From Lachnospiraceae bacterium (GTDB lineage Bacteria > Bacillota > Clostridia > Lachnospirales > Lachnospiraceae): 10,521 nucleotides of DNA. The stretch spans positions 1-10,521 of the forward strand of contig JAAWLS010000052.1 in NCBI GenBank assembly GCA_022798035.1. The letters are read 5' to 3'. Below the pieces are notes generated by a model. It was given only the letters and a program-made list of their open reading frames with translations. It was not told where the DNA came from and searched no databases. Positions 3,816 to 10,436 of this stretch are shown piece after piece; positions within the stretch are counted from its first letter, which is position 1; every line of letters starts with the position of its first letter. A program made the translations under genes and the position numbers.

Positions 3816-4283
3816 ATGAGAGTATTAGAAGGAAATGTAGTAGCAAAAGGAACAAAAATCGGAATCGTTGCAGCCAGATTTAATGAGTTTATCGTATCAA
3901 AATTGGTGGGCGGCGCACAGGATGCTTTAATCCGCCATGGAGTAAATGACGACGACATTACCTTGGTATGGGTTCCTGGTTCTTTTGAGATTCCTTTGGC
4001 AGCACAGAAGATGGCGGAGACAGGCAGGTATGACGCAGTGATTTGCCTGGGTGCAGTTATCAAAGGGGCTACCGACCACTATGACTATGTGTGTGCAGAA
4101 GTCAGCAAAGGAGTGGCGGCAGTAGGACTAAAGACAGAGCTTCCAGTTATTTTTGGAATCGTTACAACTGATAATATTGAACAGGCAATTGAGCGTGCTG
4201 GAACAAAAGCCGGAAACAAAGGATATGATGCGGCATGCACGGCAATCGAGATGGTAAATCTGATGAAGAATATCAGCCATTAA
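3816..4283 (+). CDS. ribH: 6,7-dimethyl-8-ribityllumazine synthase (riboflavin synthase beta subunit)
   Basis: Condenses the RibD product (after dephosphorylation) with the RibB product to give lumazine, the substrate of riboflavin synthase; family members build 60-subunit capsids or pentamers. The protein is 155 residues, the normal length. Recognisable blocks are the N-terminal [15 protein letters not shown], the substrate loop [20 protein letters not shown] with the catalytic His, and [17 protein letters not shown]. The ATG at 3816 is chosen over an upstream in-frame ATG (3759) because the family begins close to this residue and AGAGG (3803-3807) is correctly spaced. It is the last gene of the rib unit and is followed by a strong terminator. 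Confidence 0.95.
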
Positions 4284-4310
4284 TATACGCATCCACATAC
4301 AGAAAATAAG

Positions 4311-4352
4311 AAACAGGAAGATATCCTAATTGGGGATATCTTCCTGTTTTTT
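4311..4352 (+). terminator. Rho-independent terminator of the rib operon
   Basis: A perfect 16-bp stem (4311-4326 with 4334-4349) closes a 7-nt loop and ends in a run of T (4347-4352). It lies 27 nt after the ribH stop codon. Read on the minus strand it still forms the stem but has only a weak T-tract, so it may also hinder transcription coming from the invertible segment. Confidence 0.9.
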
Positions 4353-4368
4353 GATACATAATAAAAAA

Positions 4369-4395
4369 TGCAACATTTCTTACAAAAATGTTGCA
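4369..4395. repeat. Left inverted recombination site of the invertible segment
   Basis: The site consists of arm TGCAACATTT, spacer CTTACAA and arm AAATGTTGCA. The two 10-bp arms are exact inverted copies, the layout of a tyrosine-recombinase core site. Its reverse complement matches the site at 5158-5184 at 26 of 27 positions, including the asymmetric 7-bp spacer, and the similarity stops at the site edges. Four flanking A/T pairs (4365-4368 with 4396-4399) lengthen this copy's stem to 14 bp. Read on the minus strand the stem runs straight into six T residues, making an intrinsic terminator for leftward transcription. Confidence 0.85.
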
Positions 4396-4415
4396 TTTTC
4401 TTCGCTACACTTCTT

Positions 4416-4442
4416 ATATCGGAAAGTATCTGGAAAATATTA
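4416..4442 (-). promoter_or_regulatory. Sigma-28 (SigD/FliA)-like promoter inside the invertible segment, facing the left site
   Basis: On the minus strand the element reads TAAT (4442-4439), 15 nt of spacer, then TCCGATAT (4423-4416). This matches 10 of 12 bases of the Gram-positive SigD consensus TAAA-N15-GCCGATAT. Transcription would start near 4409, about 13 bp inside the left site, heading outward. In the present orientation it meets the hairpin plus T-run of the left site. After inversion it would lead into csrA and flagellin. An overlapping SigA-type candidate also fits on the same strand (TTGTAA at 4465-4460, 17 nt, TAATAT at 4442-4437), so the sigma factor is not certain. Confidence 0.6.
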
Positions 4443-4561
4443 CCCCTGATTTTATTTTTTTACAAATCATAACGATTTATCTCATGAAAATAACAATTTG
4501 TTTATTTTCAAATAAATGTGAATGCTCTGAATTGCTATTTTCAGGGAGTTTTGAATCGTTA

Positions 4562-5140
4562 CTACAAATTAATTTTCATAAAGATAGAATCCCGTTCATC
4601 CTGCTCAATGCCCAAATATTTCTTTGTTACGCAGTAGGAGGAATGATTAAACACATCCATCAAAAGAGCAGGAGGGACGCCTTGCTTCCAGGCATGGTAG
4701 CCAAAAGTTTTGCGCAAGGAGTGACAGCTGATATGCGAGGCATGCAGCGTTTCCTCCGCAGCTTTTTTCATAATACGGAAGGCTTGGGAGCGGCTTAATG
4801 GCACGGAGTAATCTGTCGTCTTTGTGAAGATATAATTCTGAGGAGCTGGATTACGGGTGTCTTTATAGAGTTCCAGCGTTTGTTTTAAGTGGTGGTTTAA
4901 GGCCACGGTGTTTTGTTTTCCTGTCTTTTTTTCTGTGACAGATAAATGTTCATGAAAATGCTTTTCTTTAAAATCATACACATCTTCCCAAGTTAGATTC
5001 AGAATATCGCTGATGCGGAGCGCAGTGTTGAGTCCAAATACAATCAAGGTGTAGTTTCTGAGATTTGGATGAGCGCTTTGATAGTAATTTAAAAATTTCC
5101 TTAAGTCTTCTTTTTTGCGAATTGGCTGTGTTGTTCCCAT
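4562..5140 (-). CDS. Short FimB/XerD-like tyrosine recombinase (predicted DNA invertase)
   Basis: A 192-residue site-specific recombinase that is essentially only a catalytic domain plus a short N-terminal helix region, as in FimB and FimE (about 200 residues) and unlike phage integrases (about 300-400). All active-site residues are visible: Arg42 in TALRISDIL, a beta-hairpin Lys (72 or 75) in TEKKTGK, His140 and Arg143 in CHSLRKT, His166 in FNHSSY, and the nucleophile Tyr175 in TKKYLG. I choose the ATG at 5140 because GGAGGA (5153-5148) precedes it by 7 nt; the longer open frame back to 5215 would run through the repeat. The right site begins only 18 bp upstream of the start codon, so its promoter must lie in or beyond the repeat. 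It runs opposite to all flanking genes. The likely job is inverting the segment that encodes it. Confidence 0.88.
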   Translation of the reverse strand: MGTTQPIRKKEDLRKFLNYYQSAHPNLRNYTLIVFGLNTALRISDILNLTWEDVYDFKEKHFHEHLSVTEKKTGKQNTVALNHHLKQTLELYKDTRNPAPQNYIFTKTTDYSVPLSRSQAFRIMKKAAEETLHASHISCHSLRKTFGYHAWKQGVPPALLMDVFNHSSYCVTKKYLGIEQDERDSIFMKINL

Positions 5141-5157
5141 ATTTTGTTCCTCCATTC

Positions 5158-5184
5158 TGCAACATTTTTGTAAGAAGTGTTGCA
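5158..5184. repeat. Right inverted recombination site of the invertible segment
   Basis: The site consists of arm TGCAACATTT, spacer TTGTAAG and arm AAGTGTTGCA. The spacer is the exact reverse complement of the left-site spacer, and the whole site differs from the inverted left site at one base, the G at 5177. It lies between the recombinase start and csrA, ending 64 bp before the csrA start codon. Unlike the left site, the bases following it on the plus strand (AAAAGTC) are not a T-run, so a transcript crossing it toward csrA should not be terminated there. Confidence 0.85.
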
Positions 5185-5248
5185 AAAGTCTTTGGTAAAA
5201 GTTGATAGATAACACGGGGATGCCGGGAAGTAAAACAGGAGGTTTATG

Positions 5249-5560
5249 ATGTTGAAATTATCCGTAAAGCCAGGAGAGTATGTCTTAATCGGCGAGGAGA
5301 TTAAGGTGGTGTTTACCGGGGGCAGTTCCAGTAATCTGCGGATTCTGGTAGAGGCTCCTAAAGATTATAACATTGTACGGAGCGGGGCGCTGGAGCGATA
5401 TGGAATGGCGGCAGACCCGGGCAATGAGGTGAAGTATCACAGAGAACGGGAGCTTTCGCCGGAGGCAAAAGAGCAAATCAAATCCATTCTCATGGCGGAG
5501 CGAAAGCGGGCGCGGAGAGAGGAACGGGCAAAAGATGCAAAGGTGAAATACGGAATGTAA
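5249..5560 (+). CDS. csrA: CsrA-family RNA-binding translational regulator with a charged C-terminal extension
   Basis: CsrA dimers bind GGA motifs in mRNA leaders and, in Firmicutes, repress translation of flagellin. Residues 1-50 align without gaps to classic CsrA: LKLSVKPGEYVLIG at the start, then RILVEAPKD at 31-39 and Arg44, a key RNA-contact residue. Two things are unusual. Position 6, normally an RNA-contacting Arg (LSRKPGE), is Val here. The protein is also 103 residues long against the usual 60-75, with a Lys/Arg/Glu-rich predicted helical tail from about residue 60. I choose the ATG at 5249 over 5246 because AGGAGG (5237-5242) gives 6-nt spacing and the protein then begins M-L like its family. 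It lies 162 nt before flagellin. Its partner fliW is not in the window. Confidence 0.85.
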   Translation: MLKLSVKPGEYVLIGEEIKVVFTGGSSSNLRILVEAPKDYNIVRSGALERYGMAADPGNEVKYHRERELSPEAKEQIKSILMAERKRARREERAKDAKVKYGM

Positions 5561-5646
5561 CTTATCCGAAGGTAATAACGCAGAAAAGCCGGTCAGACTG
5601 TGGAAGCAATAAAGTCATGCGGGCGCTGCTTATTATAAAAAATATG

Positions 5647-5715
5647 CGCTTCCTCAAAGGAGCGGAAACCTCTGCAAACGGATTTGCGGAGCGAAAAACC
5701 ATAACACAAGGAGGA
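5647..5715 (+). promoter_or_regulatory. Flagellin 5' leader with predicted CsrA binding sites
   Basis: The mRNA leader holds a bulged hairpin (5647-5654 with 5658-5664). It is followed by a 9-bp hairpin (5670-5678 with 5683-5691, one wobble pair) whose 4-nt loop is CGGA, so a GGA triplet is displayed at the apex. The Shine-Dalgarno region ACAAGGAGG (about 5706-5713) is a second GGA site of the ACANGGA type. An upstream hairpin site plus a site on the Shine-Dalgarno is the arrangement described for CsrA control of hag in Bacillus subtilis. The adjacent csrA gene supports this reading, but binding is inferred from sequence only. Confidence 0.6.
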
Positions 5716-5722
5716 AAATATT

Positions 5723-7729
5723 ATGGCAATGATCGTACAACACAACTTAACAGCAATGAACTCTAACAGGATGCTTGGCATCACCACCGGACAGCAGGCA
5801 AAATCATCTGAAAAGCTTTCTTCTGGATATCGGATTAACCGTGCGGCAGACGATGCGGCAGGTTTGACGATTTCTGAGAAAATGAGAAAGCAGATTCGGG
5901 GACTTGACCGGGCTTCCACCAATGCGCAGGATGGAGTTTCCGCAGTGCAGACTGCTGAGGGTGCTTTGACAGAAGTTCATTCCATGCTTCAGAGAATGAA
6001 TGAATTGGCTACTCAGGCAGCCAACGGAACAAATTCTGAATCTGACCGGGATGCCATTCAGGCGGAAATTGACCAGCTGACGACAGAGATTGACCGTGTG
6101 GCTGAGACAACTAAGTTTAATGAAATTTATCTGCTGAAGGGAAATAAAGAAGGTTCTACCAGTACTACAACAATAGCTGCACATGATGCAGGAATCAAAG
6201 GAAAACTGTTGGATAAAGGCGGCGGAACAAGTACATTTGAGTTGGACAAAGCCCTTGAAAACGGCGATAAGATTACCATCGGCGGAGCTGAGTACACCAT
6301 CGGAACAACAGCAAATCATGTTGAGGCGGATGAGCTGAATACAAGTACGGATGGGTATGAGGAGGCCTCAACGACGCTTGACGGCACGACTTTGACTGCA
6401 GGTGACAGTGTAACTTATAAAGGAAATAAGTATACTTTAACAGATAAAGTTGCGCTGGATGACGTTTTAGCTGAGTTGAAAACAGCTGGCGCTAAGTTTA
6501 AAATCGGAGAAACAGAAATCACTGTAACTACCACAACTACGGATACAGCTGACAAAATAATAAAAGACCCTACGGCTGCTACAGCTAACCTGAATGCGGC
6601 AGAAGTGGAAAAATTAATCAAATATGCTCAGGACAATGACCAGCAGATTGTCATTACAAGCATAAAACCAAAGCAGACAATAGGCAATGCAGCGAGTGCA
6701 GTTGCTGGAACTGCTGTGACAGGTAATTTTACGGTGGTTTCTTCCCTGGAAAAAGGAGAAATCAGCAGTCTTTTGGTAGCTGACAAGAAAGCTTCAACTA
6801 TTGCGAAAGCCGGCGGAATTAAAGATGGTACGGCAACAGATGACGCTACTGAAGTGAAGCTTGGAGCAGGAGACAGCATTACAGTAGGTGGCGAGACAAC
6901 AAAAATAACAGCACAAGAGCCTATAGCAGCCAAAGACGTATATACGGCTATTGATGGTTTAGCTGCTGACGGTACTGCTACCGTGAAAATCGGAGTAGGT
7001 CTGGAACAGAAAACATATACAGTAGTAGAAGAGGCAGATGTAGATGAGGAAGCAGGAAAGCTCACAAAGGACGCCATTCTTGCCAAAATTCATGACGGAG
7101 ATGTAGTAAGTACAGATGGCGGTACCACATTGAATACCGTAATCGGCGATATTGCACTTCCAGAAAGCAACGAAAAAGTAATCAGTGCAAAAAAAGCATA
7201 CTCTATGATTGCAGATGAACTGCAGAAGGCTTCCAGCATTGGAACAGATGTGGCAGCTTCCGTAACAAATGATGGAGATGGTAAATTTACCATTACCCAG
7301 GGAACCGTTGAAATGAAAGACGCATTGTCCTTCAATCTGCATGTGGGTTCTGACGCAGATATGACCAACAAGATTACCGTTGACATTGCCTCTATGGACG
7401 CAACCGGATTGGGCGTAAAGGGATTGAATGTATCAGATAACAGTGGAAATGCTGCAACTTATGCAATTGATGCTATCGCAGATGCAATTTCAAAGGTATC
7501 TGCACAGCGTTCTGCTCTTGGAGCGATTCAGAACCGTCTTGAGCATACCATTGCCAACCTGGATAACGTGGTTGAGAACACCACCGCCGCTGAGTCACGT
7601 ATCCGTGATACAGATATGGCAGAGGAAATGGTGGAATACAGCAAGAACAACATTCTGGCTCAGGCAGGTCAGTCTATGCTGGCTCAGGCAAATCAGTCTA
7701 CCCAGGGCGTACTGTCACTGCTTCAGTAA
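5723..7729 (+). CDS. fliC: Flagellin
   Basis: The major filament subunit, secreted through the flagellar export apparatus and assembled outside the cell. The conserved N-terminal D0/D1 region (about residues 1-142) includes QHNLTAMNSNRML, EKLSSGYRINRAADDAAGL and the D1 helix with LQRMNELATQAANGT. The conserved C-terminal D1/D0 region (about 578-668) includes ALGAIQNRLEHTIANL, ESRIRDTDMAEEMVEYSK and a Leu/Gln-rich end. The middle (about 143-577) is variable, rich in Thr, Ala and Gly, and seems to contain diverged repeats of a beta motif (GDxIT.GG..YTI). Residues equivalent to the Toll-like receptor 5 contacts Arg90, Leu94 and Glu114 are kept as Arg91, Leu95 and Glu115. At 668 residues it is larger than hag-type flagellins (about 300). 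The Shine-Dalgarno GGAGG is well spaced. Also called hag or flaA in relatives. Confidence 0.95.
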   Translation: MAMIVQHNLTAMNSNRMLGITTGQQAKSSEKLSSGYRINRAADDAAGLTISEKMRKQIRGLDRASTNAQDGVSAVQTAEGALTEVHSMLQRMNELATQAANGTNSESDRDAIQAEIDQLTTEIDRVAETTKFNEIYLLKGNKEGSTSTTTIAAHDAGIKGKLLDKGGGTSTFELDKALENGDKITIGGAEYTIGTTANHVEADELNTSTDGYEEASTTLDGTTLTAGDSVTYKGNKYTLTDKVALDDVLAELKTAGAKFKIGETEITVTTTTTDTADKIIKDPTAATANLNAAEVEKLIKYAQDNDQQIVITSIKPKQTIGNAASAVAGTAVTGNFTVVSSLEKGEISSLLVADKKASTIAKAGGIKDGTATDDATEVKLGAGDSITVGGETTKITAQEPIAAKDVYTAIDGLAADGTATVKIGVGLEQKTYTVVEEADVDEEAGKLTKDAILAKIHDGDVVSTDGGTTLNTVIGDIALPESNEKVISAKKAYSMIADELQKASSIGTDVAASVTNDGDGKFTITQGTVEMKDALSFNLHVGSDADMTNKITVDIASMDATGLGVKGLNVSDNSGNAATYAIDAIADAISKVSAQRSALGAIQNRLEHTIANLDNVVENTTAAESRIRDTDMAEEMVEYSKNNILAQAGQSMLAQANQSTQGVLSLLQ

Positions 7730-8717: not shown

Positions 8718-8805
8718 GCAAGATACACTTTTTAAAGGGAATCAATATCTTCCTGTTCTCCCTTTTTGTATCTTATTATGAAGCAAGATACAAAATATCT
8801 TTTGC
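8718..8805. repeat. Short repeats forming alternative hairpins between convergent genes
   Basis: AAGATACA occurs at 8720-8727 and 8785-8792, both within GCAAGATACA, and its complement TGTATCTT lies between them at 8767-8774. AAAGGGA (8734-8740) also pairs with TCCCTTT (8759-8765). The middle copy can pair with only one outer copy at a time. The stretch lies downstream of both convergent genes and probably helps end the minus-strand glycosylase transcript. No gene is seen between 8615 and 8804. Confidence 0.5.
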
Positions 8806-9338
8806 TATGATAAAAAAAACAGAATTTTCTCTCTCCAATATTCCGTTAGACGTTCCAAGTGCCAAGAGGCATTTGCCGGGCTGGTGGAGGGAAGCCGGCA
8901 GATAGAAGATACGGTTTTCTCAGGAACAGGATTCATCTGAGCCAGCAGAGGGACCGTGTACTTTTCATAGAGCTCGCAGGCTTTGTTTCCATTTCCAAAG
9001 ACGGCAGTGATGGAAGTCTGATTCAGCAGATTTGGAATATCAGCAGGAACCACATTGCGGATGCTGCTGTCTGAAGAGCCGACAATCTCACAACTTTGGA
9101 TGACATCCCAAAGGGCAATTCGGTGGTTCAGAAGGAGCTGCTTTTTCTCTGAAATTGTGATGGGAAGGGGTTCCTGTGTGACGGCGGCCAGGACTTTCCA
9201 GAATCGGTTCTGGGGATGGCCGTAATAAAAATGCTGTTCCCTGGATTTGACGGAAGGGAAAGTTCCAAGAATCAGAACTTTGGAGTTTTCATCAAAAACA
9301 GGCTGAAATTCGTGAGTATGGTGATGGTAGTCTGTCAT
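8805..9338 (-). CDS. DNA-deoxyinosine (hypoxanthine) glycosylase, uracil-DNA glycosylase superfamily family 6
   Basis: This enzyme removes hypoxanthine arising from adenine deamination and starts base-excision repair in the cytoplasm. The 177-residue protein shows the superfamily blocks in order: ILGTFPSVKSRE (residues 23-34, motif 1), FYYGHPQNRFWKVL (37-50), ALWDVIQSC with GSSDSSI (75-93), FGNGNKA (114-120), and the C-terminal RLPSTSPANA (148-157, motif 2). The YGHPQNRFW and LPSTSPAN forms are those of the hypoxanthine family, not of classic Ung. The length is normal. I choose the ATG at 9338 because AGAAAGG lies upstream at usable spacing and homologues begin just before a histidine-rich stretch like this one (DYHHHTHEF). 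The upstream frame to 9479 would run through its own promoter. It stands alone, convergent with the zinc-ribbon gene. Confidence 0.87.
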   Translation of the reverse strand: MTDYHHHTHEFQPVFDENSKVLILGTFPSVKSREQHFYYGHPQNRFWKVLAAVTQEPLPITISEKKQLLLNHRIALWDVIQSCEIVGSSDSSIRNVVPADIPNLLNQTSITAVFGNGNKACELYEKYTVPLLAQMNPVPEKTVSSICRLPSTSPANASWHLERLTEYWREKILFFLS

Positions 9339-9429
9339 GGAAATCATCCTTTCTAAATAAGTCAGACAATGAAGAGAAGGCTGTAATACCAGCAAAATCA
9401 AAAATTTTTTTCCATAATTATGTGATATG

Positions 9430-9750: not shown

Positions 9751-9782
9751 ACTTCATATAGAGAGAAAGGAGGAGGAATTTG

Positions 9783-10436
9783 ATGAGCGATAATCCTCTG
9801 GGATATGAAAAAATTCCGAAACTGTTGAAGAGCTTTGCCATTCCGAGTATCACGGCGTCTTTAGTGGGCTCTGTTTACAACATTGTGGACCAGATTTTTA
9901 TTGGTCAGGGAATCGGATATCTTGGAAATGCGGCAACGAATGTTTCTTATTCATTTTCTACGATTTGCCTTGCCATTTCCCTGCTGATTGGCATCGGCAG
10001 CGTTTCCCGGTTTTCCCTTTATCTTGGAAATAAAGAGCCGGAATCGGTAGCCAGGGCGGCGGGAAACGGAATAAGCCTGATGATAATTTTTGGACTGGCT
10101 TATCTGATAATAGGAGAAAGCCTGCTGAATCCCTTTCCCAAATTGTTTGGAGCTACCGCAGAGGTATTTCCCTTTGCCCGGCAGTATGCCGGAGTCACTT
10201 TGGTGGGAATGCCGTTTTTGATTGTCACCAATGGAATGAGCAATCTAATCCGGGCAGATGGAAGCCCCAGGTATTCGATGCTCTGTATGGTGGCAGGCGC
10301 CGTTGTCAATACCATTCTTGACCCGATTTTCATTTTGTCTTTCACTGGGGTATCTTTGGAGCGGCTCTGGCAACAGTTCTGGGACAGATTTTGTCCTTTG
10401 TTTTTGCAATACGTTATTTGCGCGGCCAGGTGCTGA
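9783..10436 (+). pseudogene. MATE-family multidrug efflux transporter, N-terminal half, frameshifted
   Basis: MATE transporters export drugs or metabolites using sodium or proton gradients and have 12 membrane helices in about 450 residues. From the ATG at 9783 (GGAGG at 9772-9776, 6-nt spacing) the frame shows NPLGYEKIPKLLKSFAIPS, VYNIVDQIFIGQGIGYLG, GNAATNVSYSFSTICLAISL, NLIRADGSPRYSM and NTILDPIFI, a confident match to the first lobe. After about residue 184 the frame turns into unrelated sequence and stops at 10436. The expected continuation, FVFHWGIFGAALATVLGQ, appears in another frame from 10334. One missing T in the TTTT run at 10333-10336 explains the break. This may be a real inactivating mutation, a phase-variable tract or a sequencing error. 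Confidence 0.75.

Follow-up and report, generated by a model that had tools for sequence, protein, structure and literature searches.

A probable self-contained invertible sigma28-type promoter cassette upstream of csrA and flagellin in a Lachnospiraceae bacterium

The Hin segment of Salmonella, which controls flagellin and alternates two flagellins, carries both a promoter and the recombinase within it. The fimS segment of Escherichia coli is an invertible promoter, and its small tyrosine recombinases, FimB and FimE, are encoded outside the segment. In Bacillus subtilis, a CsrA-type GGA hairpin lies near the ribosome site of the flagellin gene hag. Hin is a serine recombinase (PMC11868660), and fimS is described as a 296-bp segment with a promoter only (PMC5903667). 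The same source describes a putative invertible fimbrial segment of 844 bp in Providencia stuartii, with a recombinase ORF inside and 14-bp repeats, and names flagellar genes among those near invertible sites (PMC5903667). The flagellar switch of C. difficile (Cdi4, with RecV) is reported as a promoter-less 154-bp segment with 21-bp repeats, located before flgB and acting after initiation (PMC5386303). For cwpV of the same species, the terminator proposed to determine the OFF state is placed where the left repeat meets the invertible region (PMC2784873). The titles and abstract openings that we searched mention no invertible promoter for a Lachnospiraceae csrA–flagellin locus; the supplement of PMC5903667 or PhaseFinder (Jiang et al.) could list such loci.

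The window analysed here is a stretch of 10,521 nucleotides from a Lachnospiraceae assembly. We consider it very probable that it holds a self-contained phase-variation cassette that places flagellin under an invertible sigma28 promoter; one of the two sites would double as the terminator of the OFF state (Table 1). The segment lies where the original prediction placed it, between the end of the rib operon and csrA–flagellin, with ribH on its left and csrA and flagellin on its right. The sigma28-type promoter, the GGA hairpin preceding flagellin and the terminator-like form of the left site are additions to that prediction. The second hairpin in the gap on the ribH side is terminator-like on the minus strand according to the terminator scan and T-rich on the plus strand as judged by eye. 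Elsewhere in the window are a uracil-DNA glycosylase superfamily gene (8805–9377, minus strand), a MatE-family gene (9780–10436) with a 218-residue frame that is apparently shortened near the contig end, and a head-to-tail pair of 24-bp repeats at the 3′ end of flagellin (7652–7699).

Table 1. Features of the putative cassette and its neighbours, in window coordinates
Feature	Position	Strand	Remarks
ribH	3819..4283	+	Last gene of rib operon; outside module
Second hairpin, ribH/segment gap	4308..4352		Arms 4308–4326/4334–4352
Intrinsic-terminator-like structure	4363..4401	-	Left site plus T-run, in path of the proposed OFF outward transcript
csrA-distal recombination site (left IR)	4369..4395		10-7-10, arms perfectly mirrored
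Putative invertible segment	4396..5157		762 bp between sites; drawn in proposed OFF orientation
Predicted sigma28/SigD-type promoter	4416..4442	-	TAAT-N16-CCGATAT, directed away from csrA here
Tyrosine recombinase, proposed invertase	4562..5140	-	192 aa, Pfam PF00589
csrA-proximal recombination site (right IR)	5158..5184		Single mismatch, outer arm
csrA	5246..5560	+	104 aa, first gene of proposed controlled operon
GGA-loop hairpin, proposed CsrA-binding site	5670..5691	+	31 bases 5′ of flagellin
Flagellin	5723..7729	+	668 aa

The locus shares features with each of these systems, as far as the cited sources describe them, and is identical to none. An invertible promoter and a small tyrosine recombinase are common to it and fimS, but here the recombinase is inside the segment. 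The enclosed promoter and recombinase recall Hin, except that the window enzyme is a PF00589 tyrosine recombinase rather than a serine recombinase and the window has one flagellin. Enclosure of the recombinase is also described for the P. stuartii segment, which differs in concerning fimbriae and in its 14-bp repeats. Cdi4/RecV is likewise clostridial and combines imperfect inverted repeats, a site-specific recombinase and control of flagellar genes; unlike the promoter-less segment described before flgB, the window segment is longer, encodes its own recombinase, contains a sigma28-type promoter consensus and adjoins csrA–flagellin. An intrinsic terminator is the proposed OFF determinant both here and in cwpV, where the promoter is described as lying outside and the terminator as present in one leader orientation only; here the promoter would move, and the terminator would consist of the distal site and an outer T-run. 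The GGA hairpin resembles that of hag, but csrA is directly upstream of flagellin in the window, behind the putative invertible promoter.

In inverted alignment the two sites agree at 26 of 27 bases, as claimed from the sequence originally, and the asymmetric spacer, CTTACAA, is the same in both members of the inverted pair. The 10-bp arms are mirrored at 10 of 10 bases in the left site and 9 of 10 in the right. The original description of mirrored arms around a 7-bp asymmetric spacer, with the spacers exact reverse complements, is thus correct. Searching the assembly (2.26 Mb in 325 contigs, 63.6% complete) with up to three mismatches gave only these two sites. For comparison, 109 loci (L003–L111) were reduced to 93 with non-identical recombinase DNA by leaving out loci in which no recombinase match exceeded 45% identity and loci whose recombinase DNA exactly duplicated another; L113–L132 and L139–L183 are outside the 93-locus counts. 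An inverted repeat with a score of at least 14 surrounds the recombinase in 71 of the 93; of pairs taken across loci, 43 of 279 reach that score, and of shuffled pairs 1 of 93. Raising the threshold to 24, the window's own score, gives 37/93, 5/279 and 0/93. The remaining 22 loci had no repeat scoring 14 within the 320 nt searched per side. Among the cultured commensal relatives, which include Eubacterium sp. 14-2, Roseburia faecis M72 gave no site pair at a score of 14. The central seven bases are identical within the locus in 55 of 59 cases and in 1.8% of between-locus comparisons, and their self-complementarity is about that of chance (2.1 of 7). In 58 loci, most mismatches between the copies are in the outer arms (55, compared with 13 in the inner arms and 24 in the centre). 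These are inverted repeats with an identical asymmetric core, as expected of an inverton. Positions 4401–4416 were considered as a half-site of a third site, but were dropped because they align with a conserved post-promoter region in nine relatives.

The enclosed protein belongs to the tyrosine recombinase/phage integrase family (PF00589; 1.6e-25, 90.3 bits against a cut-off of 27.1). Arg42, Lys72, His140, Arg143, His166 and Tyr175, which we take to be the catalytic residues of this family (R-K-H-x-x-R-H-Y), are each conserved in at least 91 of the 93 relatives, in agreement with the full catalytic set noted originally for the 192-residue enzyme. The scores for NF007371 and NF007370, presumably models of Fim-type tyrosine invertases, are far below the cut-offs (40.1 against 222 bits and 32 against 221 bits), and we make no claim of membership in these tyrosine-type DNA invertases. 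The top match in a sequence search of the PDB is the XerC-like entry 4a8e (3.8e-8). The gene has a Shine–Dalgarno sequence (GGAGG) eight bases 5′ of its start, which is 17 bases from the adjoining site. A sigma70 promoter scan of 4280–5730 found two candidates where 3.3 were expected, which is not above chance. Relatives at E 1e-30, in any context and counting the window's own, occur in 17 of 200 family genomes and 14 of 291 class genomes. The original prediction regarded a recombinase inside its own invertible segment as less usual; within this recombinase family such enclosure is the usual arrangement. A second recombinase group consists of matches with 43–48% identity in G011, G014, G015, G001, G002 and G007; in two of its loci (L024 and L025) the fetched 1.5 kb gave no match to csrA or flagellin. 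A phage origin was also considered and set aside: only one weak relative (35%) was found in viral_contigs, in a scan that detects close relatives only.

In the interval from the recombinase stop to the left site, the minus strand carries a predicted promoter with one mismatch to the sigma28 consensus, which Neville et al. (2013, PMC3720852) give as TAAA / CCGATAT with spacings of 15–17. The N16 spacing was chosen after an initial scan with spacings of 14–17, so that the shuffles test N16 alone. With this spacing, outward-directed TAAA-N16-CCGATAT occurs behind the recombinase in perfect form in 37 of the 93 loci and with at most one mismatch in 66, against dinucleotide-shuffle expectations of 0.0 and 0.5. 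The opposite strand of the same region has no perfect motif and two with at most one mismatch, and the region upstream of the recombinase has three and six, respectively, directed outward and none and one directed inward. The upstream outward motifs include those of a sub-group of five loci (L070, L086, L093, L101 and L109) in which the sigma28 promoter is 5′ of the recombinase and not 3′. In all 67 loci with both features called, the site pair encloses the promoter. The predicted promoter is inside the segment and would be able to face its target, as expected of an inverton. A sigma28-type promoter is present in the csrA–flagellin gap in none of 66 modules and in the gap between site and csrA in two of 66. 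The same genome encodes FliA (above the profile cut-off) and another flagellin (C59, locus L133) behind the same −35/−10 elements and spacing; this 2.6-kb locus has no recombination site of this type.

Orientation was called OFF where the promoter is directed away from csrA or flagellin, as in the proposed state of the window. The 93 loci gave 65 OFF and 5 ON calls, with 23 uncalled; many of the 70 callable loci could be nearly locked. The ON loci are at five separate places on the recombinase tree and require five separate changes. When DNA was compared with csrA on the same strand, the segment was inverted in L059 relative to L065, L100, L072 and L096, in L077 relative to L105, in L042 relative to L033, L051 and L041, and in L070 relative to L093, L101 and L086. 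The similarity changes over at the sites in all four groups; the inverted alignment of the more distant pairs is fragmented. Past the distal site, the direct match between opposite-orientation pairs extends over 24–46 bases, mainly the site itself, and is absent for L070 and L101. This match is short because the distal genes differ, and the collinearity of the flanks therefore depends on the csrA side. The comparisons are largely of metagenome-assembled genomes, in which the assembly gives the majority orientation at best. Both orientations occur among related species, as expected of an inverton. The comparison of related genomes suggested with the original prediction found both orientations with the changeover at the sites, although between species and not strains, and its interpretation as an invertible switch is supported by this and by the five places on the tree. 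Its suggestion that inversion is well placed to switch motility is too wide, because the C59 flagellin has the same type of promoter and no such site in its 2.6-kb locus. The switch may alter the make-up of the filament rather than motility, and most likely acts by flipping the sigma28 promoter.

Read outward, the distal site forms a hairpin followed by a T-run, a terminator shape (at least five T in eight bases and an energy of at most −5), in 52 of 66 loci. The csrA-side site has this shape in two of 66, with a weaker hairpin (mean energy −8.3, against −14.4 for the distal site). For these counts the site away from the promoter in the assembly was rebuilt from half-sites of the same locus. 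A separate terminator scan identified the left site of the window as a minus-strand terminator. We propose that the distal recombination site doubles as a predicted OFF terminator; in the main group, the recombinase mRNA would also terminate there in the OFF state. In the five-locus sub-group with the promoter 5′ of the recombinase, the recombinase mRNA would not end at the distal site; its hairpin is stronger in 5/5 and its T-run weaker (two to five T in eight bases).

The csrA gene is within 86–778 bases of the recombinase in 80 of the 93 relatives and is accompanied by flagellin in 78 of these 80; three further loci have flagellin alone and ten have neither. The CsrA of the window scores 55 bits against a cut-off of 27 for PF02599 and is under the NCBIfam CsrA equivalog cut-offs. 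The hairpin before flagellin, CTCTGCAAA-CGGA-TTTGCGGAG, has its GGA within the loop. Such a GGA-loop hairpin is found 5′ of flagellin in 74 of 78 loci. The number expected from mononucleotide shuffles is 11.6, a slightly lenient control in that the shuffles omitted the last 15 bases. Structure prediction for the intergenic region yields the window hairpin, and the overall energy of the region is only mildly low (z = −1.84). The combination of CsrA and a GGA-loop hairpin by the flagellin start is as expected of a CsrA-controlled flagellin leader, and CsrA would be expected to bind the hairpin.

From the sites, the recombinase, the promoter consensus, the terminator shape and the two orientations among relatives, all of them read from sequence, we infer the following mechanism. 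The recombinase would invert the DNA between the 27-bp sites, with crossover within the asymmetric spacer that the sites share. One FliA/SigD-type promoter would lie in the segment, near its end and behind the recombinase gene. In the OFF state this promoter would be directed away from csrA, and its transcript would immediately meet the terminator formed by the left site and the T-run. Inversion would put the promoter at 5111–5137 on the plus strand, facing the csrA-side site, the outer arm of which is mismatched and which has no T-run, so that a transcript would run through a leader of about 100 nt into csrA and flagellin. The co-transcribed CsrA would probably tune flagellin translation via the GGA hairpin.

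The segment could be invertible and yet act mainly on the recombinase or on the ribH-side genes, with csrA–flagellin a bystander, which we consider highly improbable. The gene beyond the distal site points outward in 26 of 66 loci by mechanical ORF calls, giving candidate promoter targets, but in the other 40 it is convergent, as is ribH in the window, and its identity varies, for which reason a conserved distal target was dropped. Two loci (L115 and L121) have a related recombinase, a site pair and a perfect sigma28-type promoter without csrA in 6.5 kb, and secreted- or wall-bound-looking protein genes point outward on both sides: one side encodes a polysaccharide deacetylase with choline-binding repeats, and the opposite side in L121 a protein with Big_2 domains. 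These loci could use inversion to alternate between two surface proteins. The nearness of csrA in most relatives and the terminator-like distal site speak against such control in the window, and the main-group promoter is behind the recombinase gene and directed away from it. It is also very unlikely that the unit is a mobile cassette that integrates and excises with the sites as its ends. The variable distal genes would fit this, as would the distribution of ribH, which is in 29/29 genus genomes and near a recombinase match of >45% identity only in this assembly (elsewhere in the genus the two are on separate contigs or at least 50 kb apart). Lone sites without a recombinase are also found upstream of two csrA–flagellin paralogues in related genomes. 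These resemble the single site without a segment that the original prediction named as the sign of a mobile element, but the loci are paralogous. The sites, moreover, enclose the recombinase and promoter only, neither csrA nor flagellin; the spacers are inverted and not direct, so that recombination yields inversion rather than excision; and opposite orientations are found among relatives. The whole cassette may have been moved by other means.

That the sites and recombinase are retained as a fossil, with the segment locked OFF in this species, is unlikely, though less so than the preceding explanations. It would agree with the 65 OFF calls among 70 and with the single orientation known for this species; the recombinase frame is nevertheless intact with its conserved residues present, and decay would not have kept the two spacers identical. 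Given that the hairpin of the left site is terminator-like, the repeats might be a terminator-type palindrome with an accidental copy and no recombination. This reading is largely refuted, and we give it almost no weight: the two sites of a locus have the same asymmetric spacer, which is not shared between loci, and relatives have inverted segments.

Some related loci depart from the arrangement with an enclosed recombinase. Among 30 csrA loci (L139–L168), five have no recombinase match above 40% in the fetched flank, three of them with a site pair (L154, L166 and L167) and two with one site (L143 and L162). In L166 a recombinase is ∼2.4 kb away (L117), and L154 has two-mismatch promoter motifs in both directions. 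No partner for the single sites was found within 8.2 and 6.9 kb upstream, allowing up to one mismatch in the six-base arms, and these stretches (L181, 8240; L182, 6947) have no sigma28 motif toward csrA with up to one mismatch and no recombinase; these two loci may be decayed or have the partner elsewhere. L155 and L168 have short site pairs with the recombinase outside. Enclosed and detached forms of the recombinase thus both exist. In L068 the recombinase is between two outward-directed flagellins inside a large inverted duplication, which may mean that two flagellins alternate there or that the assembly is at fault.

An invertible promoter cassette for flagellin may be present in several copies per genome. 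In G012, six recombinases adjoin csrA–flagellin, each with a site pair around a promoter variant, TTAA-N16-ACGATAT; the pair in L020 is weak (score 14), and the spacers of L129 and L130 are nearly the same. Four of the six flagellins were compared (those of L122 and L020 were outside the comparison, the L020 flank being short) and are 85–89% alike over the N-terminal 150 residues and 17–28% alike in the centre. On the basis of these six cassettes, each with its own invertase, and of flagellins that are alike at the N end and divergent in the centre, we somewhat favour the idea that motile gut Lachnospiraceae carry independent flagellin switches, with an invertase and a largely private spacer for each cassette and the far-side site as the OFF terminator. 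Single cells would then differ in their filament antigens, with the cassettes mostly off. L068 suggests that some cassettes alternate two flagellins.

The flagellins of gut Lachnospiraceae are considered to be major immune antigens. Flagellin preparations from Roseburia inulinivorans and Eubacterium rectale are reported to have stimulated IL-8 secretion (PMC3720852). The use of a recombination site as a terminator as well would be a compact design. If the proposed switch is real, the presence of a flagellin gene would not equate to its expression, the orientation ratios in metagenomes would be a direct readout of the flagellins that are likely to be made, and the variability of the host response to the bacteria would become testable.
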